The notes: generated by a model not told the origin, from the letters alone. DNA of 24,375 nucleotides from a virus (IMGVR_UViG_3300031857_001332:1-24375), one strand, 5' to 3'; counted from the stretch's first letter, positions 2,241 to 24,291 are shown. Numbers and translations are program-made.

Positions 2241-2809
2241 CCGAAATATCTTCTTAAAAATTTAACATCCACTCCCTGTTCACCTGTCTTATCAAAGGAA
2301 ATATCACTAGAACTGCTAGTATTAGAGTTAGGAAATAATTTACTACAATCCCAATTAGCACAGCAATACTCAGAAAATAAATCGCTATTCTCACATAAAT
2401 ATCCCTGTAACATTTTAGTATAGTGCATAGCATTGTTTTTACACTTTGCTTCGAGTCTACTTTCTTTTCCTTGATCTGCATTGCTTAAGTTTTCCCCATT
2501 TTGTTGAACGTTTCCTATGTTAGCTATTTTAGTTCCAATGAAAGGTAAAGCCTCTACAGTTACTAGCCATACCATACAATCTCTAATTTTTTTACATAAA
2601 ATTAATTCATTTGGGTAACTTGCTAAAGTATCGTCTGCTATAATTTTAGTGATTAAATCATTGTATAAATTAGTTCCTATTACCCCTTGTATATGTACAT
2701 CCTCAGCTATCTTCATAAAAGGATAGAGAGTAACCATGTCTATATTTTTGCCTAGTGGTGAGTTATCTTTAAGATATTGCTCATCTATAAAGTATGCTGT
2801 GTTAGCCAT
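2237..2809 (-). CDS. Head-tail connector/adaptor (DUF6712-like)
   Basis: This is a 190-residue protein, mainly helical at the N-terminus, beginning with a TAYFIDEQYLKD segment and continuing into a DVHIQGVIGTNLY segment. I recognise this pattern from small adaptor proteins next to portals in Bacteroidetes phages (the DUF6712 type, from memory). Such proteins sit below the portal ring and join head to tail. The C-terminal third has several Cys (ENSDLFSEYCCANWDC), unusual for a virion adaptor; they may be structural or bind metal. The gene overlaps the portal gene by 8 bases and the fiber gene by 4, so translation is probably coupled. The position directly after the portal supports the call. 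Confidence 0.65.
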   Translation of the reverse strand: MANTAYFIDEQYLKDNSPLGKNIDMVTLYPFMKIAEDVHIQGVIGTNLYNDLITKIIADDTLASYPNELILCKKIRDCMVWLVTVEALPFIGTKIANIGNVQQNGENLSNADQGKESRLEAKCKNNAMHYTKMLQGYLCENSDLFSEYCCANWDCSKLFPNSNTSSSSDISFDKTGEQGVDVKFLRRYFG

Positions 2810-4043
2810 TTATCGGTGAAGTTGGGTTTGTACCAGTTGGTGTAAATACTGTGAATGGTAAAATATCTAATTGAACTGGGGTTTTATTAAAATCTAAAAT
2901 CTTTTGAAGTGATTGAATTAAAAAGTTCCTATCCGCTTCCATACTTACCTTATCAAAAATCTGATAAGCTACTTGTAACTCAGTATTGCCTCCTAATTGA
3001 CCTGACACTGAAACTCCAGCCAATAAAGGACTAGTTAATTGGTGACCTGTAAGAATCTTTTTATCGCATAACTCAGCTAGTAAAAGTAATTGTTTATCTA
3101 GTCCACTAGTTTCAATAGGCATAATATCTGGAGCTAACTCCTTACCGTCTGAAAAAGTCACCACGTGTTTACCTGCATTCTTAGCACCTCTAAACTGAGC
3201 TTTTACATTAGCCATTATTTCATCCCTGTCATTCTCGCTTGCTGGTAGCTTATAAAATTTTAACCATAAGCTAGGGTTCATTCCATTCTCTAAGTTACTA
3301 GAATGATAAATACCCATTTGAAAGTCTGTGTAAATCCAAGTAATAGCACCTACATAAGATGGCACTCCGTAATAATCTAAATCTCCTACTTTTTCATAAA
3401 CTAGTTGATTCATGCTTTGCTTATTGTTCTTATTAAAGGCTGCAATAGGCATAGGTTTAAATCCCGGCTGTCTGTATTTAAGCCAATCCTTAGAATAGTA
3501 GTAAGTGTCCACTTCATTGTCAGCGTTCATCTTACCAGCTCTAATATGTTTAACAGGGACGTATTTAAGAGTAACTATCTTAGTGAAATCCATGTTATAA
3601 ATTACTTCATAACAGAAAGCTCCAAACTTTTGTAAGTCATTAGCTAATTTCATGGCTAAAATATCACCCCTGTCTTTACCGTTAGGATTCTTTAATAGTA
3701 AATCTAAGTCTAACTTAACATTAGATGGTAGTGAATTATATGCCGCTATTGATTCATCTTTGGTTTTAGTGCCTTTAATAATAAAGCCCTCACCGTGAGT
3801 CATCTTAGTTTTGGTCTTTAGGATTGAATTATGAATAGCCGATCCGTATGGTAAGTCAGCTAATTGTAAAGGATACTCGTTATTTTCCCCGTATAAAACC
3901 CAATCAGTATTTTTCTTTTCAATTATTTGTGGAACTTCAGGAATTGCAGAAGCAAATACCGACATATTAGAACCACTCGATTGAACTACTTTAGGGCTTA
4001 CTGCCTTACCTAACGCTTGTTTTAAATCTTTTATTAAACTCAT
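2802..4043 (-). CDS. Portal protein
   Basis: This 413-residue protein would form the dodecameric DNA channel at the capsid vertex and the docking site for terminase and tail. The evidence is overall layout. A variable N-terminus contains a WVLYGENNEYPLQL segment. A helical clip region follows, with DRGDILAMKLANDLQKFG. Then comes a LKYVPVKHIRAGK strand segment, and a C-terminal part with LTSPLLAGV and ELQVAYQIFDK, as in portal proteins that lack strong sequence motifs. Length is in the usual 400-500 range. The gene overlaps the upstream 135-residue gene by 4 bases. It is oddly placed: it is far downstream of terminase and behind the capsid and tail-tube genes. I am confident of the family by pattern, but it has not been tested by profile search. 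Confidence 0.75.
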   Translation of the reverse strand: MSLIKDLKQALGKAVSPKVVQSSGSNMSVFASAIPEVPQIIEKKNTDWVLYGENNEYPLQLADLPYGSAIHNSILKTKTKMTHGEGFIIKGTKTKDESIAAYNSLPSNVKLDLDLLLKNPNGKDRGDILAMKLANDLQKFGAFCYEVIYNMDFTKIVTLKYVPVKHIRAGKMNADNEVDTYYYSKDWLKYRQPGFKPMPIAAFNKNNKQSMNQLVYEKVGDLDYYGVPSYVGAITWIYTDFQMGIYHSSNLENGMNPSLWLKFYKLPASENDRDEIMANVKAQFRGAKNAGKHVVTFSDGKELAPDIMPIETSGLDKQLLLLAELCDKKILTGHQLTSPLLAGVSVSGQLGGNTELQVAYQIFDKVSMEADRNFLIQSLQKILDFNKTPVQLDILPFTVFTPTGTNPTSPING

Positions 4044-4447
4044 CCTTTAAATGTTTTTGAACTCTTTGTATTGCTATCTCCTACGAAAGTAGTGATAGGA
4101 TTAGCACTTGAATTACGAACCCAAACCTTGCCCGTTTCTACCGTTGCTAGTGCATTAGCTTTAACTAAACTAACTGGGCTAGTACTAGCCATTTCAAACA
4201 CAGTATAAGACCAGAAACCAGCCTCTAATTTAATCGTCCCGTTGTAAAGGTTTTGGGTGTTTGATTCTGTAATTGTGAACATATTGTATCTGTCTGTATT
4301 GGTACTCATTTCAAATGCTGTAAATGCTATTATTTCACCCGTTGTATCATTAACGAACTCAAATAACCAATCATGCGAGGTTGTGGTAGCCCTTTCATTT
4401 AAGGTTAAAACAACCGTATTAGCTTGGCCTTTTGTGATGTAAATCAT
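4040..4447 (-). CDS. Beta-rich phage structural protein, function unknown
   Basis: This is a 135-residue all-beta protein without transmembrane or catalytic motifs. Segments such as HDWLFEFVNDTTGE, GFWSYTVFEM and VETGKVWVR match a small protein I know only as a recurrent neighbour of structural genes in Bacteroidetes phages. Its role in the particle is not established to my knowledge. It is the first gene after the terminator at 4481-4515 and begins the portal-connector-fiber segment, overlapping the portal start by 4 bases. A virion decoration, head fiber or tail accessory role would fit. The start at 4447 follows an A/T-rich leader with no Shine-Dalgarno site. Confidence 0.6.
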   Translation of the reverse strand: MIYITKGQANTVVLTLNERATTTSHDWLFEFVNDTTGEIIAFTAFEMSTNTDRYNMFTITESNTQNLYNGTIKLEAGFWSYTVFEMASTSPVSLVKANALATVETGKVWVRNSSANPITTFVGDSNTKSSKTFKG

Positions 4448-5114: not shown

Positions 5115-6026
5115 CTATGAGTAAAGAACAATCTCAGCACCTACACCGAAACCGAATCCGATTTTAAACTCAGTTATCATACGAACAGTTGGCTCACCTA
5201 AGATGCCTTTCATACTGATAATGTTTAATTCGTTTTCGTCGCTTACTAAGTCTGTAGCATACCACAAGTTTTGAGGGTCAGCGCATACAGCTCTGTAAGT
5301 TGGCATTCCTTCAGCTACTACAATTTTAAGGTCGATGTAAGTAAGTTCATAAGAACCTTGATTCCAACCAACCAACGCGGGGTTAGCAGTTACCAATGCT
5401 TGCTTATAAGCTCTTCCAACTACTGGGGAAACATAAAGAACTAATTTAGAAATATCTAAAGTGGTTGGGATTGCTGTGTAAATCTTAGTGATTTCAGCAA
5501 TACAAGTACCAGCTACTCCGATATTAGTGCTAGTAGCAGCTACGTCTACTACTGTAGCATCAGCAAGTAATTGCTTGATGATACCATCACACAAAGTTAC
5601 TGGAGAAGCTGAATCATCACCAGCCCAACAGATAACCTCAGTTTGTTGTGAGATACGATTAGAAACTAAATTCAATAAGAACTCGTTAAAGTCAGCAGGA
5701 ATATTCCCGTCAACATTACTGCCCGGTCTTAATTTTTCTGAAAGGTAAATCGACTCGTAATCTTTTTCGCAAATTTCGAGGTTAACCTTCAATGCACAGA
5801 CACTTAAAGTTTTCTGGGCTAGGGAAATAGTTCCTGTTGAAGCGAATGAACAAGAGTCATCAGCTAGGATGTTACCTAAGTTAAGTGATCCAACTTTAAC
5901 GCTGGATTTTACATTAGGGAAAAGACGGAAAGTAGATTTACTAGTTCCAGTCAATAACGCAGTTGTATAAAAACCATCTAGGTCTTTACCTGTGTAAGTT
6001 GTTGAATTTGATAATACAGTTGGCAT
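5115..6026 (-). CDS. Major capsid protein (HK97-fold type)
   Basis: This 303-residue protein is predicted to be the capsid shell subunit. The N-terminal arm (about 1-60) leads into beta strands. A helical stretch with LEICEKDYESIYLSEKL and DFNEFLLNLVSNRISQQTE would be the spine helix region. The C-terminal EPTVRMITEFKIGFGFGV...EIVLY ending is typical of capsid proteins of this group. The length suits a mature-type subunit of a small siphophage without a long delta domain. Scaffolding is probably supplied by the protease/scaffold gene immediately upstream (6 bases away). A strong terminator follows. The leader before the ATG is almost pure A/T, consistent with a Bacteroidetes-type ribosome entry. 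Confidence 0.85.
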   Translation of the reverse strand: MPTVLSNSTTYTGKDLDGFYTTALLTGTSKSTFRLFPNVKSSVKVGSLNLGNILADDSCSFASTGTISLAQKTLSVCALKVNLEICEKDYESIYLSEKLRPGSNVDGNIPADFNEFLLNLVSNRISQQTEVICWAGDDSASPVTLCDGIIKQLLADATVVDVAATSTNIGVAGTCIAEITKIYTAIPTTLDISKLVLYVSPVVGRAYKQALVTANPALVGWNQGSYELTYIDLKIVVAEGMPTYRAVCADPQNLWYATDLVSDENELNIISMKGILGEPTVRMITEFKIGFGFGVGAEIVLYS

Positions 6027-15259: not shown

Positions 15260-16459
15260 TTATAGTCTACCCATCATGTAATTGAACTCACCTTTACTCT
15301 TATATTCCTTGTAACATTGGTAAGCTATACAGCAACTCATTACCCCGTCATCGTGAAAGCCTGAAGGAGCTGAGTATTTTATGTTTCTAGTCTTAGGGTT
15401 ATACTCATAAGTAAATACATTGAACTCTTTTATTAACCAATCAATGTTAGGTAAAGTGAATTGTTGGTTTTGAATAGCTACCTGTAAACCCTCAACGATA
15501 TCCTGTTTAGATTTTGAGGTAGTAACGAATGGTTTAATCTTTGGGTAAAGTTTTAACAGTTGCTCATAGATAACGTCCCCTATTGAATTAACCTCTATTA
15601 ATACGTGTGGATTGTATTGTTTAAGGATGGGGAGCATTGAGTTGATAATGTTCTGCCAACTGTTATGCCTCCAGCGTTCACAGTAAACTAAATGCCCGTT
15701 TTGATTAATGATAGATAGAACCGTGTAGTCATCTGCCCTACCTAAATCTATCCCAGCATAATAAGAACTTGATCCCGTTGGATTAGCTATTGTTAAATTA
15801 CTAAAGACTCCCGAACCGTTATCTACAAACTCAGCTAAGTACTCTTGTTTGAATATATGCTCTGGTAATGTATAACGGGCTGAGTCTATCTCATTAGGGT
15901 CTATGATTGGATTATCATAACTAGACATTCTAAAGGATTTAAACTGAGGGTCTACCCCATCTAGTGCATGAAGGTTATAAAACCAATTCCTACCTCTTGG
16001 AGTAGATAAGAATAGTACTTTCTTACCCATAACTAAAACGGTAGCTCTTAATACATTAGTCCATGCCGCTTCCATTTGCCATGCCGCCTCATCTATTATA
16101 AGATAATCAAATGTAAACCCCCTCATGTTATCGTAACGCTCTGAGCTAAAGAGTTGAATGGATGAACCGTTAACCTCGAGCTTTAACTTACTTGCATTGG
16201 TCTTTACAAAGGATGGTTCAAAAGCCTTAGCCATTTCATCAAAGACCTTTTCTGATTGTTTATAGATTGGACTTACCCAGCCTATCTTACAGCCGGGGTC
16301 ATTCATTGCCCAATAAAACGCTTGGTTCATTGCAAGCATAGTCTTACCGAACTGCCTGCCTATACTTAAAACATAATACTTGTAAGGTTCAAAGTTAATT
16401 GAATCATGTATTATCTTCTGGTTTTGGTGTGGGTTGTATAGTGTTACCAAAGTTTGCAT
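15260..16459 (-). CDS. terL: Terminase large subunit (ATPase and nuclease)
   Basis: This is a 399-residue DNA packaging motor. The Walker A motif GRQFGKT is at 34-40 and the Walker B motif YLIIDEAAW at about 119-127, with Asp123 and Glu124. The coupling motif LSTPRGRNW is near 151-159. The RNase H-like nuclease follows: YAGIDLGRADDYT with Asp238, then LIEVNSIGD (Glu289, Asp295), then FHDDGVMS (Asp370/371). These acidic residues would bind the metal ions that cut the concatemer. It is at the short end of the family but all motifs are intact. The start overlaps the small subunit gene by 56 bases; MQTLVTLYNPHQNQK is a natural N-terminus, so I kept it. Confidence 0.95.
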   Translation of the reverse strand: MQTLVTLYNPHQNQKIIHDSINFEPYKYYVLSIGRQFGKTMLAMNQAFYWAMNDPGCKIGWVSPIYKQSEKVFDEMAKAFEPSFVKTNASKLKLEVNGSSIQLFSSERYDNMRGFTFDYLIIDEAAWQMEAAWTNVLRATVLVMGKKVLFLSTPRGRNWFYNLHALDGVDPQFKSFRMSSYDNPIIDPNEIDSARYTLPEHIFKQEYLAEFVDNGSGVFSNLTIANPTGSSSYYAGIDLGRADDYTVLSIINQNGHLVYCERWRHNSWQNIINSMLPILKQYNPHVLIEVNSIGDVIYEQLLKLYPKIKPFVTTSKSKQDIVEGLQVAIQNQQFTLPNIDWLIKEFNVFTYEYNPKTRNIKYSAPSGFHDDGVMSCCIAYQCYKEYKSKGEFNYMMGRL

Positions 16460-16853
16460 TTATAGTTCCTGTGTGTTCGTTCTTAGTTTCTGACTTCTCA
16501 ACTAAGCCGTTAAGTCTTTGGGTTATTGATGGGTTGTAAAAGCCCATCATGCCTCCAGTAATTTGTTGTTCTCTGATTTCTAACCTTATACGTGAACAGA
16601 TAACCTTAAAGTCATTATAATATTGTAAGTTGTTATCAAAGTAATTAGATACATCTCCATGATTTTCAAAGCAATAGCGTTTAAAACCTTCTAATGTATA
16701 AGGTAGTACGGGGTAATCAGTCATTCGGTGTCCGTCCTTACCTACGTATTGTATCTTAGGCCATTCTTTAGCTTGATCCTTTAGAGATAGTTTATAGTTA
16801 TCCCATGCTTGTTTAAGTTCTTCAGGGGTTTTAAATATCCTTGTTGGGTGCAT
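16404..16853 (-). CDS. Terminase small subunit (DNA-packaging gp3-like)
   Basis: This is a 149-residue protein with an N-terminal FKTPEELKQAWDNYKLSLKD helix and a DYPVLPYTLEGFKRYC motif (a helix-turn region near 47-62). The central helix carries DFKVICSRIRLEIREQQITGG, and the C-terminus is polar and disordered. This is the pattern of the P22 gp3-like/gp3_package group of small terminases, which recognise DNA and recruit the large subunit. It is directly upstream of the large subunit. Its start codon shares a base with the stop of a 51-residue membrane protein gene (TAATG). Confidence 0.75.
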   Translation of the reverse strand: MHPTRIFKTPEELKQAWDNYKLSLKDQAKEWPKIQYVGKDGHRMTDYPVLPYTLEGFKRYCFENHGDVSNYFDNNLQYYNDFKVICSRIRLEIREQQITGGMMGFYNPSITQRLNGLVEKSETKNEHTGTINANFGNTIQPTPKPEDNT

Positions 16854-17634: not shown

Positions 17635-17922
17635 TTATACTTTTATACTTAAATTTCTATGTGGCTGATAATATGATAACTCGATTCCGTTTTCCTGAAA
17701 CATTTTTGCCGCTTCGTTAAAAGCATCATATCCCCAATAATGTTTTGTATCTACTAAAACAAACTCTCCTTTTTTTCTTAGGTGCCACTTTGTTTTAAGA
17801 ATAGAATTTATTTCTCTAATACATTTTGAAACTGCATCTTTATGCCTTAACTCATTATCTGCCTCTTCATTTCTTACAGTATTAATACTATTCAATTCTT
17901 CTATTGTGATTGGCTTTTCCAT
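17635..17922 (-). CDS. Hypothetical phage protein (95 aa)
   Basis: This is a 95-residue soluble protein that I do not recognise. The N-terminal half is charged helix (ITIEELNSINTVRNEEAD) and includes ELRHKDAVSKCIREINSIL. The C-terminal half is alpha/beta with FVLVDTKHYWGYDAFNEAAK followed by NGIELSYYQPHRNL. It overlaps the sigma-like gene stop by 22 bases. No motif indicates an enzyme. Confidence 0.6.
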   Translation of the reverse strand: MEKPITIEELNSINTVRNEEADNELRHKDAVSKCIREINSILKTKWHLRKKGEFVLVDTKHYWGYDAFNEAAKMFQENGIELSYYQPHRNLSIKV

Positions 17923-18485
17923 TGTTCTATCTTTGTTTTAACCTCGTTTATTAATTTGTTAATATTCTGGTAGTTAGATTCATAACCTACTAAGTCTGTT
18001 AATCCTTTGGCTATGTCCCTGCTACTCATTCCTAATTCAAAGTACTGGTGAAATATCTCTTTATCCCACCCCGGTAAACTTTCTTTAAACACTACCAAGT
18101 TAACATAGTTCTCTGCCATTGATTTATTCAAATGACTTACCACGTCTATTAATTCTTTAGTGGCTTGGTTTGTTTCCTCACAGTTTAAATATATCTCGTT
18201 TAAGGATTCATTGTCAACTACTTGGTGTCCTTCTATTATCTCTAACTCCTTACCGTTGTACAACTTGTTAAACTTTGATCTCTTACCTTTAAACTCCCAC
18301 TTCATTTGAGTAACAAATACCTTTATAAATTCCTCATCCTTTTCAGGTATTGCGTCCCAGTTAGTTATCTTCAAGTATGTTTCACTAATCAAGTCATCAG
18401 CCATTAACTCATTCTTTACTCGGCAGATATTCCGGGCACAATGTTTAATGTACTTATGATTCTTAGATAGTAATTCATTTAACAT
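17901..18485 (-). CDS. Sigma-70-like (ECF-type) RNA polymerase sigma factor, putative
   Basis: This is a 194-residue protein with the two-domain layout of small sigma factors. Residues 8-75 resemble region 2: HKYIKHCARNICRV, then MADDLISETYLKI (compare the A-E-D-L-x-Q-E motif that contacts core polymerase), then a helix FIKVFVTQMKWEFKGKRSKF as the -10 binding region. Residues about 140-190 resemble region 4, with FHQYFELGMSSRDIAKGL as a helix-turn-helix and a basic last helix. The linker between (80-135) is longer than usual. It lies before the structural genes and could redirect host polymerase to late promoters. Alternatives are another HTH regulator or a packaging co-factor. Confidence 0.55.
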   Translation of the reverse strand: MLNELLSKNHKYIKHCARNICRVKNELMADDLISETYLKITNWDAIPEKDEEFIKVFVTQMKWEFKGKRSKFNKLYNGKELEIIEGHQVVDNESLNEIYLNCEETNQATKELIDVVSHLNKSMAENYVNLVVFKESLPGWDKEIFHQYFELGMSSRDIAKGLTDLVGYESNYQNINKLINEVKTKIEQWKSQSQ

Positions 18486-18793
18486 TAGAAGTATTTAATA
18501 TCAATACTTAACTCACTCCCCTCAATCTTTCGGTCTGGTTTGTAAAAACTTACTACCCTTTGACCTTCCTTAGTTTTGTTATCAATAATAAAATGCTCAC
18601 AAACTTCATCCTCTACTATCATTATCTTCTTGAACCTCCAAGTGTTACGCTTAGCTAAGTGTTCAATGAACTTATCGTTATAACCTAGCTCCTTTAGTTT
18701 CTTTCTAAAGATACCTTCCTTTTGCTTCATTATCTCATTAGCAATCCTATCGACCTCGTTCTGTATGTTTGGCTGTTCTTCTGTAATGTTCAT
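18485..18793 (-). CDS. Hypothetical phage protein (102 aa)
   Basis: This is a 102-residue charged protein, not recognised. Helices (NEVDRIANEIMKQKEGIFRKK then FIEHLAKRN) lead into a beta-rich end with KIMIVEDEVCEHFIIDNKT and VVSFYKPDRKIEGSELSIDI. It sits between the GT25-like gene (4-base overlap) and the sigma-like gene (a TAATG overlap). Its coupling to the sigma-like gene makes a partner or regulator of that factor conceivable, but nothing in the sequence proves it. Confidence 0.55.
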   Translation of the reverse strand: MNITEEQPNIQNEVDRIANEIMKQKEGIFRKKLKELGYNDKFIEHLAKRNTWRFKKIMIVEDEVCEHFIIDNKTKEGQRVVSFYKPDRKIEGSELSIDIKYF

Positions 18794-19362
18794 AGTAGCT
18801 TACTTTTATCTAAATGCTCATCGTTGTACTTGGTGTGATTCTTTGCGTTATCGCTGTAACCATCCCTTTGATGAGCTATGTATTTAGCTGTTACAAATAT
18901 ACTTAAATTTTGTTTACTTAACCATCTATCATAGTGGTTAATTCCATCCCATGTTAATAACTTATCATAGCTGTTAGCATTTACAATATAGAAGTGTAAG
19001 CCACAGAATTTACTTATCTTATCCCAATACTCATTGTGCTTTGTTGTTCCCCCTCTATTATAAACGCCTCCCATTAATATATCCCAACTGTCTGGCAAAT
19101 TATCTAAACACTTATTAAAGTATTCAATAGTCTTTTCCTTAGCCTGAAATACTATATCATCTTCCATGATACAAATGTACGGCAGTCCCTGTTCCTTAGC
19201 TAACTTAATACAGTTAGTATGAGCTTGGCCTATTCCCTGTTCTGGTTTTAAGTGAGGAATCCCATCTATAACCATAGGCTTTAATCCAATCCACTTTACT
19301 TCCTCTTTAAAGAGTTCGTATCTATCTGTACGTTGGGGTAGGTTTATAACGCAGCTAACCAT
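18790..19362 (-). CDS. GT25-family glycosyltransferase
   Basis: This is a 190-residue transferase of the GT25 type (LPS beta-galactosyltransferase and collagen galactosyltransferase group). An INLPQRTDR motif at 6-14 is the classic N-terminus. GIGQAHTNC at about 43-51 is the Gly-X3-His segment, and YICIMEDDIVF at 62-72 holds the acidic metal-binding residues. A C-terminal GLHFYIVNANSYDKL block is typical of the family. There is no membrane segment, so it should be cytoplasmic. It is last of the six transferase genes. The sugar donor and acceptor cannot be read from the sequence. Confidence 0.8.
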   Translation of the reverse strand: MVSCVINLPQRTDRYELFKEEVKWIGLKPMVIDGIPHLKPEQGIGQAHTNCIKLAKEQGLPYICIMEDDIVFQAKEKTIEYFNKCLDNLPDSWDILMGGVYNRGGTTKHNEYWDKISKFCGLHFYIVNANSYDKLLTWDGINHYDRWLSKQNLSIFVTAKYIAHQRDGYSDNAKNHTKYNDEHLDKSKLL

Positions 19363-19996
19363 GTAATAAATTATGAATGTGTTTCATTGCCCAAACGTCT
19401 TTAGTCCTATCTAAATCATCGCTCTTACAACGGTAGTGGTAAAGATAAGGGTTCTTCATTCTTTGATCATGTGAGCTGTTATAAGGAAATACATCCCATC
19501 TCGCTGCATCCGTTGGGTGAACGCCTGCTCTCTCTAAATAAACCCCTATTAAACAGTCTTCAGAGTCTGTAGGGTAGTCATCAATAGTTCTTAATATATT
19601 AACTAGATCGGTAGATAAAACAAAACCGCATCCAGATGCAAAGCCTCCGCCTAACTTACCGTTGTAAACTTTTGTTTTTGGTAGAGTAGATATATATTCT
19701 TTTAACTTTTGCTTATTAACGTAACTTGATGCGTTGGTTCTAAATATATAATCATAAGCACAGTTAGAATCAAATATCCAATCTAAAGCTAACTTAAACC
19801 TGTAGTTGTTCATATTGGCTTCCTGTGGACACTTAACATATAAGTCTTTACCATATTGTTTGAACTCATTGCCTGAGTAGTAATATATTGTATCTACCCC
19901 CTCAACATCTATTGAATCCCAAGTTTCCTTTTGTCCCTTGATTATTTTATCAAAGGGTGGTATATGGGTGGCTTGCACCATTATTAAAATCTTCAT
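19355..19996 (-). CDS. GT31/fringe-like glycosyltransferase
   Basis: I chose ATG 19996 (MKILIMVQATHIPPF), 22 bases after the previous stop, over a start 48 bases earlier that overlaps the previous gene. The result is 213 residues. Features like galactosyl/fringe-type GT-A enzymes are GQKETWDS at 21-28, YDYIFRTNASSYV at 81-93, GGGFASGCGFVLS near 116-128, and EDCLIGVYL at 146-154, the family's catalytic acidic motif. The usual DxD after the FRT segment is replaced by NASS, as in some bacterial relatives. No membrane anchor is present, unlike eukaryotic members. It overlaps the GT25 gene by 8 bases. Confidence 0.6.
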   Translation of the reverse strand: MKILIMVQATHIPPFDKIIKGQKETWDSIDVEGVDTIYYYSGNEFKQYGKDLYVKCPQEANMNNYRFKLALDWIFDSNCAYDYIFRTNASSYVNKQKLKEYISTLPKTKVYNGKLGGGFASGCGFVLSTDLVNILRTIDDYPTDSEDCLIGVYLERAGVHPTDAARWDVFPYNSSHDQRMKNPYLYHYRCKSDDLDRTKDVWAMKHIHNLLHG

Positions 19997-20018
19997 ATTA
20001 TTATCCAATCTTTTTTTG

Positions 20019-20756
20019 TCATAATTTTCCGTATACTGATTCAAATAGTTTTAAGAACTTAGGTAGCTTTTCTTCATGCTTTACATTTACATTCTCACAG
20101 TGAGCATCTATCATTTGACCTTCAGGTGTAATCATTCCATTGCCACGATCTGTTCTACCTAATGCGTAACAAGTACCCGGCTGTCTACCTCTTAATACAT
20201 TTGTAATAGGTAAGCCTGAAGCCTTTAATCTTTTAGTTAATAAATCCCAGTCATAGTTCCACCACGTTTCCCAATCTTCTTTGTATGGAGTCCCTAACCA
20301 ATCAGCATCACGTTTAAAATCCGCTACACTATTCTCAGTTAGTAACATTACCTTTTGCCATTTATCCGCAGTCATTCCAATATATCCCATTGGATAAAAA
20401 GAGTAGTCCGTTAAGTCATGGCCGTAACTTGTAATCTCATCCATGTTAGGATGCCAGTAATCAGATAGTGGAAGTAAATCCATATCACTAATCATTAAAT
20501 ACTTATCAGGTTGGAACCCAAAGAAACGTGCAGCGTATAACCTTGATGCCTGTGATATTGTTTCCTGTCTAATCCCTTCCATCTTAGGAACTACTACCGT
20601 GTAATCACTTTTAATATTAGCCCTATCTACGTCATCAGTAATCATTGTGCATACTGACCAACCGTAAGATTTCCAAGCCTTATAAATATAAGGGGAATAA
20701 AACCAATAGTCTGGGTTGTTATTTGTGCTTACTACTATAATTTTCTCGTACTCCAT
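20019..20756 (-). CDS. GT-A-type glycosyltransferase-like protein
   Basis: This 245-residue protein starts with a strand (KIIVVSTNNNPDYWFY). The nucleotide-binding strand-loop contains KYLMISDMDLLPLSDYW at about 85-101, whose DMD is the likely metal-binding motif. A later WWNYDWDLL segment and AHCENVN near the end are typical of sugar-acceptor parts of these enzymes. There is no signal peptide or membrane helix. It is in the transferase operon, overlapping the 61-residue gene by 38 bases. The family number is uncertain and the acceptor unknown. Confidence 0.6.
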   Translation of the reverse strand: MEYEKIIVVSTNNNPDYWFYSPYIYKAWKSYGWSVCTMITDDVDRANIKSDYTVVVPKMEGIRQETISQASRLYAARFFGFQPDKYLMISDMDLLPLSDYWHPNMDEITSYGHDLTDYSFYPMGYIGMTADKWQKVMLLTENSVADFKRDADWLGTPYKEDWETWWNYDWDLLTKRLKASGLPITNVLRGRQPGTCYALGRTDRGNGMITPEGQMIDAHCENVNVKHEEKLPKFLKLFESVYGKL

Positions 20757-20904
20757 TTATTTCACCGTTTATAATTGTTATTAATATTTCATTACCTAGC
20801 TCATCCTTAATAGTTAGTAGATGGCTTATGTCAGTTGAATGCTCTAAATATATTACCTGAGTATTAGCGTGTATTCCATTTATGTTTACAATGCTATGAT
20901 TCAT
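20719..20904 (-). CDS. Small beta-rich protein in transferase operon (61 aa)
   Basis: This is a 61-residue frame starting at 20904, overlapping the stop of the transferase upstream by 11 bases and the next transferase by 38. It is beta-rich (HSIVNINGIHANTQVIYL, then LTIKDELGNEILITII) with no membrane segment or known motif. Composition is protein-like and the frame links two genes that would otherwise be about 140 bases apart, so I accept it, though it could be spurious. Confidence 0.55.
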   Translation of the reverse strand: MNHSIVNINGIHANTQVIYLEHSTDISHLLTIKDELGNEILITIINGEINGVRENYSSKHK

Positions 20905-21745
20905 TTACCCAATAAAATATGTTAGGATATTTCTTTTCTAAAGATAATAAATCTTCGTAATCATTCCAATACTTTCTAAGGAATTTAAACAAAGCAGTTT
21001 CGTACCAGCCACTTGCTCCAATGTGACCGCAAATAGTATTTGTTTCTTCTGGTATGTTTAAGTCTAAATAAGTAGGTACTTCATTATGCCAATCATTTAA
21101 GAATGTGTTAGCCATTCCTAACAAGTAGTGCTGAGTTATTGATTCACTTCCTTTGTTTGCCCATGCCGGATATACTGTTTCATTTAAAAAAGTTTGATCG
21201 GCTCCCTTTCTTTTATAATCAATGTGTTGGTTAAGTTGCAATAGTTTATCCCAACTGTCTGGCATTCTCAAAGTCCACGTATCAGTCTTTATTCCTATCA
21301 TGCCTCCAAGTAAAGGAATGTTATGTGATACACTGTCTGTAATAGCGTGCATGGCACTACCTTTGTTTAACCAGTACTGAACGCATTGAGCTTCTTTCTT
21401 AGTGGTTGGGCTGTCTAAGTCTCTACAAAGTACATGAGTGAATTTAGGCTTATCCCACTCTTTGCCACCTTTGTTTAAATAAACGGGTTTTAATCTCCAA
21501 AGCATTGCCTTGCATAAAGGCTCAGGTTCGTTAACATAAACTTCTAAATCCTTTATCCCATCAAATAATTCCTTAAACGCTTCGTAGGTTTCTTTATCAG
21601 TATTTAATACCGTAGTCCATTCAGGATAAACTATTCTATTCATCCTAATAGAAATCATTAAGCCTCTTAAATAGCTGTTAAAATCAAAACAATTATCTTG
21701 ACGTTCTTTATTGTAACCAAATAGTGCGTAACTAATAGCTTTCAT
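20894..21745 (-). CDS. GT-A-type glycosyltransferase-like protein
   Basis: This is a 283-residue soluble protein. The N-terminal MKAISYALFGYNKERQD start is followed by a Rossmann-like region (YPEWTTVLNTDKETYEAF). FTHVLCRDLDSPTTKKEAQ (about 102-120) contains RDLDS, the likely metal/nucleotide-binding acidic motif. After it come HAITDSVSHN and GGMIGIKT (about 147-154), a pattern of acceptor-side loops in small GT-A enzymes. This group is found in capsule and phage gene clusters. It overlaps the GT2 gene by 4 bases and the 61-residue gene by 11. Confidence 0.6.
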   Translation of the reverse strand: MKAISYALFGYNKERQDNCFDFNSYLRGLMISIRMNRIVYPEWTTVLNTDKETYEAFKELFDGIKDLEVYVNEPEPLCKAMLWRLKPVYLNKGGKEWDKPKFTHVLCRDLDSPTTKKEAQCVQYWLNKGSAMHAITDSVSHNIPLLGGMIGIKTDTWTLRMPDSWDKLLQLNQHIDYKRKGADQTFLNETVYPAWANKGSESITQHYLLGMANTFLNDWHNEVPTYLDLNIPEETNTICGHIGASGWYETALFKFLRKYWNDYEDLLSLEKKYPNIFYWVNES

Positions 21746-22311
21746 TTGTTGCTAATATAATCATAATAATACAATATTTTATCTATGTAAACTTCTTTCT
21801 TAAGAAGTTCTGACTTTAAAAGTCTTTGTGAATATTCTGAATCCTCACCAAAATCTTTGTCAGGAAACTTAACAGCCTTAGCTACTTCACTCTTAACCAC
21901 GTTTAAATGGTTCGTGTTTCGCTCATACTTAATTGGATTGGTAGTTGTTTTCCATTCAGAGTATTTAATGCTATGCTCAAATAACTCAGGGATTCCCCCG
22001 TCGATGGTTATCTCACCCCTCAAAGATAAACAGTCTGGTTTACTTTCAAGTGCTTTTAAAATGGTTTTAATATAATCCTTAGCTATTCTATCGTCACTAT
22101 CAATAAAGCATAAGTACTCACCTTTAGCCCAACTTAGTAACTCGTTTCTGTAATGTCCTATTGATTTTTCCCCATTGTTTAAATAAGGGTAAACCTCTAC
22201 CACATCATGCTTACCGTAACCTATTTGTGAGTTAATATCATCGTGTAATAGTTGGAACTTCTTATGATGTTTCTCGTGGATAGGAATTAATATACTTAAA
22301 AATTCGCTCAT
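21742..22311 (-). CDS. GT2-family glycosyltransferase
   Basis: This is a 189-residue compact GT-A enzyme of family 2. FLSILIPIHEK opens the Rossmann-like part. GHYRNELLSWAKGEYLCFI with DSDDRI (71-76) is the classical RN...A-G-E-Y-x-F-x-D-S-D-D signature that binds the divalent metal and nucleotide-sugar. There is no C-terminal membrane domain, in contrast to polymerising GT2 enzymes. It is shorter than typical (about 250 or more), suggesting a minimal catalytic domain. It overlaps genes on both sides by 4 bases. Confidence 0.8.
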   Translation of the reverse strand: MSEFLSILIPIHEKHHKKFQLLHDDINSQIGYGKHDVVEVYPYLNNGEKSIGHYRNELLSWAKGEYLCFIDSDDRIAKDYIKTILKALESKPDCLSLRGEITIDGGIPELFEHSIKYSEWKTTTNPIKYERNTNHLNVVKSEVAKAVKFPDKDFGEDSEYSQRLLKSELLKKEVYIDKILYYYDYISNK

Positions 22312-22679
22312 TTTATTTCTAATTCCTCTCCAGTTAAGGTAAAATAAAGGTTTTGTAATTGGTGTACGTATTCTATCTTATATTCATCTATAATCCACCC
22401 CTCATCGTTTCCTGCATCTAAGTAAAATCTATGTTCAGTCCAAATAAAACTACCTTTAGAAAATGAGTTTTCGAACCCTTTAGTTGGATTTTTAGGTTTC
22501 ATAAACCCAAACTTTATCAACCATTCTTCGGTTAATGGGATGGGTTCTATGTGCATTTGTACCATGTCTTTTTTATCTAAAGACTCACAAACAGCCCCAT
22601 CATAATCAAACCATAACACCCTAACTGGTACAGTATCAACTTGTACTAAATTACCAATCCTTAATTCATTTGCTTTCAT
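22308..22679 (-). CDS. Conserved small phage protein (123 aa), unknown function
   Basis: This is a 123-residue protein starting MKANELRIGNLV, with EPIPLTEEWLIKFGF and a C-terminal YVHQLQNLYFTLTGEELE. I know this pattern as a widespread small protein of Bacteroidetes phages and prophages, with no established function. It has no catalytic or membrane motif. It lies between two transferase genes with 4-base overlaps on each side, so it is co-translated with them here, although in other phages it occurs without them. Confidence 0.75.
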   Translation of the reverse strand: MKANELRIGNLVQVDTVPVRVLWFDYDGAVCESLDKKDMVQMHIEPIPLTEEWLIKFGFMKPKNPTKGFENSFSKGSFIWTEHRFYLDAGNDEGWIIDEYKIEYVHQLQNLYFTLTGEELEIK

Positions 22680-23371
22680 AGTCCAAAGTTAATAGCTCTA
22701 CGTTTGTTAAATAGTTCCTTATCGTAATCCCAAGCTAATTGATTCTTTTGGTAAAGACCATCATCCCTTAAAGAAGTTGGATGCTGACAAGCCGGGTGAT
22801 CGTGCCTGAATAAAACATCAGGGCTTTTAATTAACTTACCTAGCATCTTAGCCACCTCAGTTGCTTCGTTATCACAATAGAAACTTTTATACTCAGGATG
22901 GTAAATTGTTTGTGTTCTATCCCAATAATTTATACCTAGTATCTCCATTGTGTTTATACGTGGTTGGCTAGAGTCATAATACCATAAAGAGGCATCTAGG
23001 CTATTAGGCATAGCTTCTCTTATAATTGAATCCCAACCTTGTTTAACACAGGTTTGGTCATCGCTTAAACTAACCACAATATCCCAATATTCCATTTGAC
23101 TAAAGATTAATAAATCTCTATTAATGGCATGGATTTTAGACTTGCTAGCTCCGTAATAAATGTGAGGTTCTTTTAAAAGTTCTCTTAATTTTAAAGTAAA
23201 CTCATGGCCACAAAGCTCATCGTCAGTATCTAAACTAATTAACCACTTAATCCTTGATGGGTTATTAGCTAAATCTTTAGCCTTTCTTAGAGCTTCAAGG
23301 GCTTGACTAGGTCTGTTTCTAGTAGTTAGTTTAACAACTATCATTTTCTCTATCAAGCCTTTATATTCCAT
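22676..23371 (-). CDS. GT2-like glycosyltransferase
   Basis: This is a 231-residue protein with a GT-A layout: IVVKLTTRNRPSQALEALRK at the N-terminus, IKWLISLDTDDEL (41-53, the first acidic motif), and then WDIVVSLSDDQ (96-106) followed by QGWDSIIREAM (111-121). This pair of acidic loops is common in transferase-like genes of phages. I used ATG 23371; a TTG at 23380 extends the frame by three codons, and an internal Met at residue 10 is also a possible start. It is the first transferase of the block and follows the HNH gene by about 25 bases. Confidence 0.7.
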   Translation of the reverse strand: MEYKGLIEKMIVVKLTTRNRPSQALEALRKAKDLANNPSRIKWLISLDTDDELCGHEFTLKLRELLKEPHIYYGASKSKIHAINRDLLIFSQMEYWDIVVSLSDDQTCVKQGWDSIIREAMPNSLDASLWYYDSSQPRINTMEILGINYWDRTQTIYHPEYKSFYCDNEATEVAKMLGKLIKSPDVLFRHDHPACQHPTSLRDDGLYQKNQLAWDYDKELFNKRRAINFGL

Positions 23372-23396
23372 TGAGTTCAAAATTAGTTATTTTTTT

Positions 23397-24095
23397 TTAT
23401 CTGTTATTATTATTTATTAACACAGCTCTGTTCTTTTCTCGCATTGCTTCACGCTCCTTTAAGTTCATATCATGTAGAAATGTTTTAATCTTAGCCTTTC
23501 GTTTCTTTTTTAGCTTATACCTATCTACTACTTTAACCTTATTCTTTTTAACTTTAATAGGCGTATAAGAATAGTGTTTAGGTTCGTTTGTTTTTAATCT
23601 CTTAGCTTTCTTTTGTGGTTTAGTGTGAACGTCTTTATGGCATTGCTTACATAGAATCTGGATATCGGACTCTAGTTCATTCATAAATCTAACATAGGTT
23701 AAATGGTGGCCGTGTAATTCAACCCCACTTATAGAGCAAATCTCGCATTTATTACCCCTATCTAGTTTAATCTTGTTTCTAAAGTTAATCCACTTGGCCG
23801 ATTTTAGATATTCATTGTAGGCTTTTTTCCTATCTGAATGATACGTTTTAGATTTTAACACTCGGCTTTTAACAGGTAGCTTATCTTCTCTATAAATAGA
23901 TGAGCCAATTCTGTTATACTCTTTTATTACAAAGATTGAAATCTTTTTTTTAGACACAATATCATTTAGATTCTCTAGTATGATATACTGATTTACTATG
24001 TCTTTATGTTTTAGACTTAATAATTCAGCTTTGTGAATCATGGTTATCACTTTAACCATCCGTTTTATTCCTGTCTTGTATGATACTGTGTTCAT
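23397..24095 (-). CDS. HNH endonuclease
   Basis: I take ATG 24095 (232 residues). A start further upstream (24158) would add 21 mostly Phe/Leu residues, which is an artefact of the T-rich leader. The HNH domain is at about 97-160: YLKSAKWINFRNKIKLDRG leads in; Cys117 and Cys120, then HGHHL (128-132), then Cys149, Cys152, His153 and His157 make a zinc-HNH nuclease. A long basic tail (about 160-220, many Lys) may bind DNA. HNH genes near terminase often help packaging; this one is separated from it by the transferase block. It could also be a homing-type nuclease. Confidence 0.8.
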   Translation of the reverse strand: MNTVSYKTGIKRMVKVITMIHKAELLSLKHKDIVNQYIILENLNDIVSKKKISIFVIKEYNRIGSSIYREDKLPVKSRVLKSKTYHSDRKKAYNEYLKSAKWINFRNKIKLDRGNKCEICSISGVELHGHHLTYVRFMNELESDIQILCKQCHKDVHTKPQKKAKRLKTNEPKHYSYTPIKVKKNKVKVVDRYKLKKKRKAKIKTFLHDMNLKEREAMREKNRAVLINNNNR

Positions 24096-24291
24096 AATGC
24101 TAAACTGCTTTAAAAGAAAAAGTAAAAAGAAAAACAACCGTAAGAAAAACAAAAACAAAAAAGAAAAAGCCCCCTAGGAAAACTTTTCTGTTTTTAATAT
24201 TATTGACTCGATCCAAACTAGTGACTAGTAAGTTGCTCCTTTGGTTACCTTCCTTTGGCTTAGAAGGGTTTAAAATAAGTCTATTGGTCAT
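24096..24291 (-). promoter_or_regulatory. Leader region with T-rich tract and short palindrome
   Basis: This is a region of about 200 bases between the right-edge terminator and the HNH gene. It holds a T-rich tract on the minus strand (about 24111-24170) and the palindrome ACTAGTGACTAGT at 24217-24229. A promoter for the leftward operon must lie nearby, but I cannot find a clean Bacteroidetes -7/-33 motif. A 63-codon frame fills the space but looks like an effect of the T-rich tract. Confidence 0.35.

Follow-up and report, generated by a model that had tools for sequence, protein, structure and literature searches.

Why would a phage carry six different glycosyltransferase (GT) genes in one block, and on what would their products act? 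The question is raised by a virus record from IMG/VR (IMGVR_UViG_3300031857_001332:1-24375), referred to here as the window, i.e., the whole stretch of 24,375 bases that was analysed. Between positions 18790 and 23380 of its minus strand lie eight frames, encoding six putative GTs (in gene order GT_F, GT_E, GT_D, GT_C, GT_B and GT_A) and two small proteins between them. The original prediction, made without database searches, was of a GT cassette inside a phage late operon, specifying a multi-step cytoplasmic pathway with a virion protein or DNA, rather than host lipid, as its target. We report here that GT_F-GT_E-GT_D-GT_C is a conserved co-linear core in related phages, around which other genes are exchanged.

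Four transferase genes recur in a fixed order

IMG/VR was searched with TerL, GT_D, GT_C and GT_F, which yielded about 190 loci, terL serving as the anchor for collecting related contigs. The related records are all genome fragments, and each count refers to contigs collected by a motif-seeded search. Core order was counted in contigs picked by GT_D alone and non-redundant at 90% identity. GT_E lay upstream of GT_D in all 33 of these contigs, GT_F was ahead of GT_E in 28 of the 33, and GT_C was downstream of GT_D in 19 of the 23 with enough flanking sequence. The phages concerned differ widely: their GT_D proteins are as little as 39% identical to that of the window, and two or more TerL families occur beside the block. 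The persistence of the F-E-D-C order among them suggests that it is most likely a selected unit.

GT_D is nearly restricted to phages. Among 84,980 species genomes of bacteria and archaea, a scan found a single relative, in an Ignavibacteriae genome bin, where it overlaps a relative of GT_C (L195, 4175-5765) without the rest of the core. This pair is flanked by chromosomal-looking genes, i.e., for a Fur-like regulator and an iron-sulphur oxidoreductase-like protein, and may stem from a rare exchange of genes between a phage and a bacterium. A profile search of 395 genomes of the Ignavibacteriae phylum gave three further matches, all partial and inside longer frames. That the pair has been kept in a bacterium suggests that GT_D and GT_C act together.

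These observations bear on the alternative that the block is a loose set of separately acquired GTs, each acting alone on a different target, with no single pathway. GT_A, GT_B and many flanking genes do come and go between relatives, and GT_F and GT_E are also found apart from GT_D and GT_C. However, the ordered core in widely diverged contigs, with GT_E present in 33 of 33, and the retention of the D-C pair in a bacterium make this explanation very unlikely.

In relatives, the cassette adjoins head or terminase genes. In L126 and L127 the cassette (GT_F and GT_E, with GT_A also in L127) is on the strand opposite the head genes, and in L127 it is embedded in the head module, with orf135 on one side and the 303-amino-acid head protein family on the other.

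The six proteins resemble GT-A-fold transferases

Profile and structure searches bore out the proposal that all six proteins are transferase-like, placing GT_A in GT25, GT_B weakly in GT31, GT_E in GT2 and GT_F among phage GTs by profile, and GT_C and GT_D by modelled fold. GT_E matched Pfam Glycos_transf_2 (7e-7, 29.7 bits, cut-off 23.3) and a PHROGs glycosyltransferase (8e-34), and GT_A matched Pfam Glyco_transf_25 (4e-6, 27.3 bits, above the cut-off of 24). Relatives of GT_A with a MEDD motif, 41-46% identical, occur in L127, L128, L129 and L132. GT_F matched the PHROG 14945 glycosyltransferase (4e-8) and has an SDD motif and conserved columns in the family alignment; its relatives are encoded by 451 candidate stretches in IMG/VR. 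The match of GT_B to Pfam Galactosyl_T was below the cut-off of 23 (0.002, 18.4 bits), its best PDB sequence match was beta-1,3-galactosyltransferase 6 (B3GALT6, GT31; E 0.0075), and as an IMG/VR query it returned no relative. GT_C and GT_D matched no family profile, and Pfam gave no GT family for GT_F; PDB sequence searches with these three gave no meaningful match. When a phage collection was searched by tblastn, GT_A and GT_D found remote matches only, and GT_B, GT_C and one GT_C relative found none. A PDB match of GT_A to a designed repeat protein was judged to look spurious.

GT_C and GT_D were modelled with AlphaFold2 on alignments of 34 and 37 sequences, with mean predicted local distance difference test scores of 94.7 and 90.3, respectively. 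The best match of GT_C in fold searches was glycogenin (Z 13.5, root-mean-square deviation 3.6 over 190 residues), and blood-group transferases also matched. For GT_D the best match was LARGE1 (Z 12.3, root-mean-square deviation 3.9 over 222 residues), followed by GlyE, LgtC and glycogenin, all with Z about 11.8. D91 and D93 of GT_C were invariant in the 34 sequences, as were R108, D109 and D111 of GT_D (RDxD) in the 37. These high-confidence models indicate that both proteins have a GT-A fold, nearest to GT8-type enzymes. The fold searches with GT_D also listed the nucleotidyltransferases IspD, TarI and GlmU at similar scores, so that the fold alone is insufficient to decide. We prefer to read GT_D as a glycosyltransferase, and disfavour a nucleotidyltransferase, because it has an RDxD motif, matches GT8-type enzymes best and is encoded among other GT genes.

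The GT-A fold with a DxD-type motif is indicated for GT_C and GT_D by model, fold search and invariant DxD, and for GT_A, GT_E and GT_F by motif and profile; for GT_B the assignment comes from a weak GT31 profile with an atypical motif. We therefore regard all six as GT-A-like, putative glycosyltransferases of presumed activity, that of GT_B probably being the least certain. As predicted, none of the six has a membrane segment (maximum 19-residue Kyte-Doolittle mean <=1.23). In this they do not resemble the prophage Gtr type, with its membrane-bound Gtr glucosyltransferase and GtrA flippase, for which no specific search was made.

Genes around the core are exchanged

Comparison with related phages, envisaged in the original prediction, showed exchange of the genes surrounding the conserved core. 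Flanking genes in relatives encode GT4-like and GT2/GT7-like enzymes, TylF, a hexapeptide acetyltransferase, a Polysacc_synt_2 dehydratase, and MptE/CST-I-like and Stealth-like proteins. FkbM methyltransferases were present in 18 of 41 contigs, and a probable class I methyltransferase, a weak assignment, in 25 of the 41. The DNA of L005 and L008 is 98.5% identical over a stretch that starts just below the cassette and reaches into terL, and 78% identical over GT_E/GT_D; between these aligned stretches L005 encodes an acetyltransferase, a dehydratase and a further GT-like protein, whereas L008 carries GT_C and a probable methyltransferase. L128, several of whose backbone genes closely resemble those of the window, has kept GT_F, GT_E and GT_A, and at the position of GT_D, GT_C and GT_B it has another open reading frame and a FkbM-like methyltransferase (labelled by eye). 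These swaps show that the outer genes are exchanged between phages, and suggest that the outer part of the glycan is modular.

Packaging genes also seem to be exchanged, as suggested by L120 (9151-10727) and L005 (8126-9701), in which the terS/terL stretch does not align, although identity is about 90-98% on either side; an assembly chimera is the alternative. L036 (1-365) and L039 (1-159) are protein-identical to the window downstream of terL, and both stop short of the cassette, within terL; this would be expected of an upstream region that differs between strains, but may also be an accident of assembly.

A virion protein is the favoured acceptor

The claim that a multi-step cytoplasmic pathway modifies some component of the phage, and not host lipid, proved to be the best-supported reading, in view of the conserved core order, the results of searches for lipid-linked pathways (below) and the relationships of GT_E. 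Over its full length, GT_E is homologous to the N-terminal half of gp108 of mycobacteriophage Che8 (blastp 3e-20, 30% identity), the first gene of a run of three GTs, and likewise to Zapner gp106 and LittleE gp15 (blastp values for the three from 3e-20 to 1e-31; LittleE gp15 1e-31, 34% identity), the gene for LittleE gp15 directly following that for the major capsid protein. A GT_E profile scored 144-154 bits against Che8 gp108, Zapner gp106 and LittleE gp15. None of 395 bacterial genomes from a single phylum matched the profile at 1e-15, in a search without an internal positive control, and the family appears to be specific. Virion proteins of Che8, Corndog and Myrna are reported to be glycosylated, in Che8 those of the capsid and tail tube, in statements of PMC12363180 citing Freeman et al. 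2023. We consider it probable that the block is a phage glycan-assembly cassette, acting stepwise in the cytoplasm on a virion protein and producing a conserved core with variable outer decoration.

Could the acceptor instead be a host surface glycan (on undecaprenyl diphosphate or lipid A core), remodelled during infection for superinfection exclusion or release? Many bacterial GT2, GT8 and GT25 enzymes use lipid-linked acceptors, and cytosolic peripheral GTs can remodel host surface glycans without membrane segments. The location of the D-C pair in a bacterial chromosome would also fit, and of 31 records, made up of the window plus 30 related contigs, 5-6 encode an integrase, so some cassette carriers may be temperate. 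However, the initiating phosphoglycosyl transferase (PF02397) and the flippase (PF01943) were each found in none of the 31 fragmentary records, with 9 and 13 of 14 controls positive, respectively. The block also lies among packaging and structural genes, and a lytic phage would presumably gain little from a surface change. We regard host-surface remodelling as unlikely. Sugar-nucleotide pyrophosphorylases (NTP transferase) were likewise found in none of the 31 records, with positive controls, and there was one epimerase among them; the GT block itself contained no sugar-nucleotide, flippase or polymerase genes, as the original prediction had it.

Several points weigh against a virion-protein pathway. 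The window phage and its close relatives are known from their genes alone, the virion glycan and its acceptor being deduced, and the missing genes may lie outside the fragmentary contigs. GT_B has TNASS instead of a canonical DxD; because its single remote relative, in L149, has TNLST at the same place, we take this to be a family feature rather than a lesion. Two matches of GT_A point towards DNA: one to the TET-associated GT (TAGT) family (1.4e-4), which at 22.3 bits is below the curated cut-off of 27.5, and a weak one (0.006) to a PHROG of T4-type hydroxymethylcytosine glucosyltransferases. Going by its title, a paper of Pyle et al. from 2024, cited in PMC12619734, reports hypermodification of DNA with diverse glycans by virus GTs. 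If DNA were the acceptor, genes in another part of the genome would supply a modified base, to which the six enzymes would add a glycan, branched or linear, as a block to restriction. Against this, no thymidylate-synthase-type base hydroxymethylase was found in the 30 related, fragmentary records (9 of 14 controls positive), and members of the GT_E family adjoin capsid genes and occur in phages whose virions are reported to be glycosylated. A search of the same 30 records for TET/JBP oxygenases gave no match, nor did its controls. DNA glycosylation seems improbable to us, and where the original prediction had named a virion protein or DNA, the evidence leans to the former. A last point against the virion-protein pathway concerns Che8 gp110, one of two GTs called essential for capsid glycosylation (PMC12363180): at E 0.01, neither gp109 nor gp110 had relatives among the window proteins.

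If the cassette does act on a virion protein, its enzymes would, judging from the operon, be made late in infection together with the packaging proteins. One of the GTs would begin by using a host nucleotide sugar to prime a side chain in a capsid, decoration or tail protein, and GT_F, GT_E, GT_D and GT_C would complete one short oligosaccharide core of up to four sugars. GT_A and GT_B would then cap or vary the glycan; in relatives, capping would fall to other GTs, to FkbM/TylF-type and other methyltransferases, to an acetyltransferase and to a sugar dehydratase. Both this order of sugar addition and a role of the variation in evasion or attachment are what we infer.

A broader proposal is possible, but tentative: the phage-restricted F-E-D-C core, including two families without a Pfam match, may make a virion glycan core common to many uncultivated lineages, with swappable outer decoration; bacteriophages would then have a system comparable to the capsid glycans of chloroviruses and showing antigen-like variation. 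Direct evidence for phage virion glycosylation was found in the literature for only a few mycobacteriophages. A conserved, ordered and nearly phage-restricted core in many lineages would, if true, mean that phages own dedicated glycan pathways, and would provide a sequence marker for finding them. The two transferase families without a Pfam entry are available for biochemistry, and since phages that are otherwise nearly identical have exchanged outer genes, glycan variation, and what selects for it outside an animal host, can be tested directly.

Layout of the window

The main genes of the window (Table 1) are all on the minus strand and comprise the HNH-endonuclease gene, the GT block, the sigma-like gene, terS and terL (2 kb downstream of the block), head and tail genes, and a frame of 433 amino acids at 939. 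The predicted tight packing of six GT genes and two small proteins held up: adjoining frames in the block overlap by 4-38 bases, which is what a translationally coupled operon would show. The proposed late operon is consistent with strand and neighbours, from which alone we infer it; promoter- and terminator-like sites in the window were no commoner than in shuffled sequence.

Table 1. Features of the window at and near the GT block
Feature	Position	Strand	Basis or remark
HNH-endonuclease gene	23397-24158	-	
GT_F, GT-A-like putative glycosyltransferase, first core gene	22676-23380	-	Likely start 23344 by family alignment; ATG alternatives 23371, 23344
orf123, small conserved phage protein	22308-22679	-	PHROG 10066, 1e-26, function unknown
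GT_E, GT2 putative glycosyltransferase, second core gene	21742-22311	-	Pfam, PHROGs, blastp
GT_D, predicted GT-A-fold transferase (GT8-like), third core gene	20894-21745	-	AlphaFold2 model, fold search
orf61, small protein between GT_D and GT_C	20719-20904	-	Copies in relatives
GT_C, predicted GT-A-fold transferase (glycogenin-like), fourth core gene	20019-20756	-	AlphaFold2 model, fold search
GT_B, GT31-like galactosyltransferase-type protein, variable position	19355-20044	-	Likely start 19996; weak profile
GT_A, GT25-like putative glycosyltransferase, variable position	18790-19362	-	Pfam GT25
orf102, small protein	18485-18793	-	Weak PHROG match only, family of unknown function
Sigma-like protein downstream of cassette	17901-18485	-	PHROG 1740 sigma factor, 0.009
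Terminase small subunit (terS)	16404-16853	-	PHROG 606, 1e-9
Terminase large subunit (terL)	15260-16459	-	PHROG 2, 2e-47

Copies of orf61, 45-46% identical, lie between GT_D and GT_C in L050, L051 and L114. The sigma-like protein, possibly a late-gene regulator, has a 40% identical relative at the same place in L128. Several TerL relatives, both with and without a GT cassette, likewise have a sigma-factor-like protein upstream of their terminase genes (L022, 8147-8584; L029, 3577-4017; L032, 2194-2640). The portal (2802-4043) and a head protein (5115-6026) match those of Nonlabens phage P12024 with 27-28% identity, which hints at a host among the Bacteroidota. This head protein, of 303 amino acids, and a protein of 135 amino acids rich in Ser and Thr (4040-4447) are candidate virion proteins for the cassette to act on.

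Comparison with known systems

In the chlorovirus PBCV-1, the major capsid protein receives its conserved glycan core from a pathway of several GTs that is encoded by the virus and independent of organelles (PMC7826918). Its capsid glycan enzymes (A064R, A111/114R and others) form a multi-GT virus pathway of the kind proposed for the window, and the GT_D fold matches the PBCV-1 capsid-glycan transferase 2p73 (Foldseek 6.6e-4). PBCV-1 is a eukaryotic virus with multidomain enzymes, and the likeness is one of functional analogy only.

Among mycobacteriophages, Che8 (gp108-gp110) and Zapner (gp106-108) have, like the window, a tight run of several GT genes that includes a GT_E homologue. In Che8 there are three GTs, at the genome end, whereas in the window there are six, upstream of the terminase genes; the Che8 run lacks relatives of GT_D, GT_C and GT_F, and its GT_E-like domain belongs to a longer protein. 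LittleE has a run of four GTs (gp15, 17, 18 and 21) that resembles the window cassette in containing a GT_E homologue, but has no GT_D or GT_C relatives and is interleaved with a kinase gene.

A close architectural parallel, judged by published gene arrangement, is Corndog, in which an O-methyltransferase and three GTs between portal and protease are proposed to modify the capsid (PMC4351075). There, GTs and a methyltransferase (gp35-gp38: O-methyltransferase, two GTs and an N-acetylglucosamine transferase) stand among virion genes, although the GTs are fewer than in the window. The window shares with Corndog and LittleE a cassette of soluble GTs set among virion and packaging genes.

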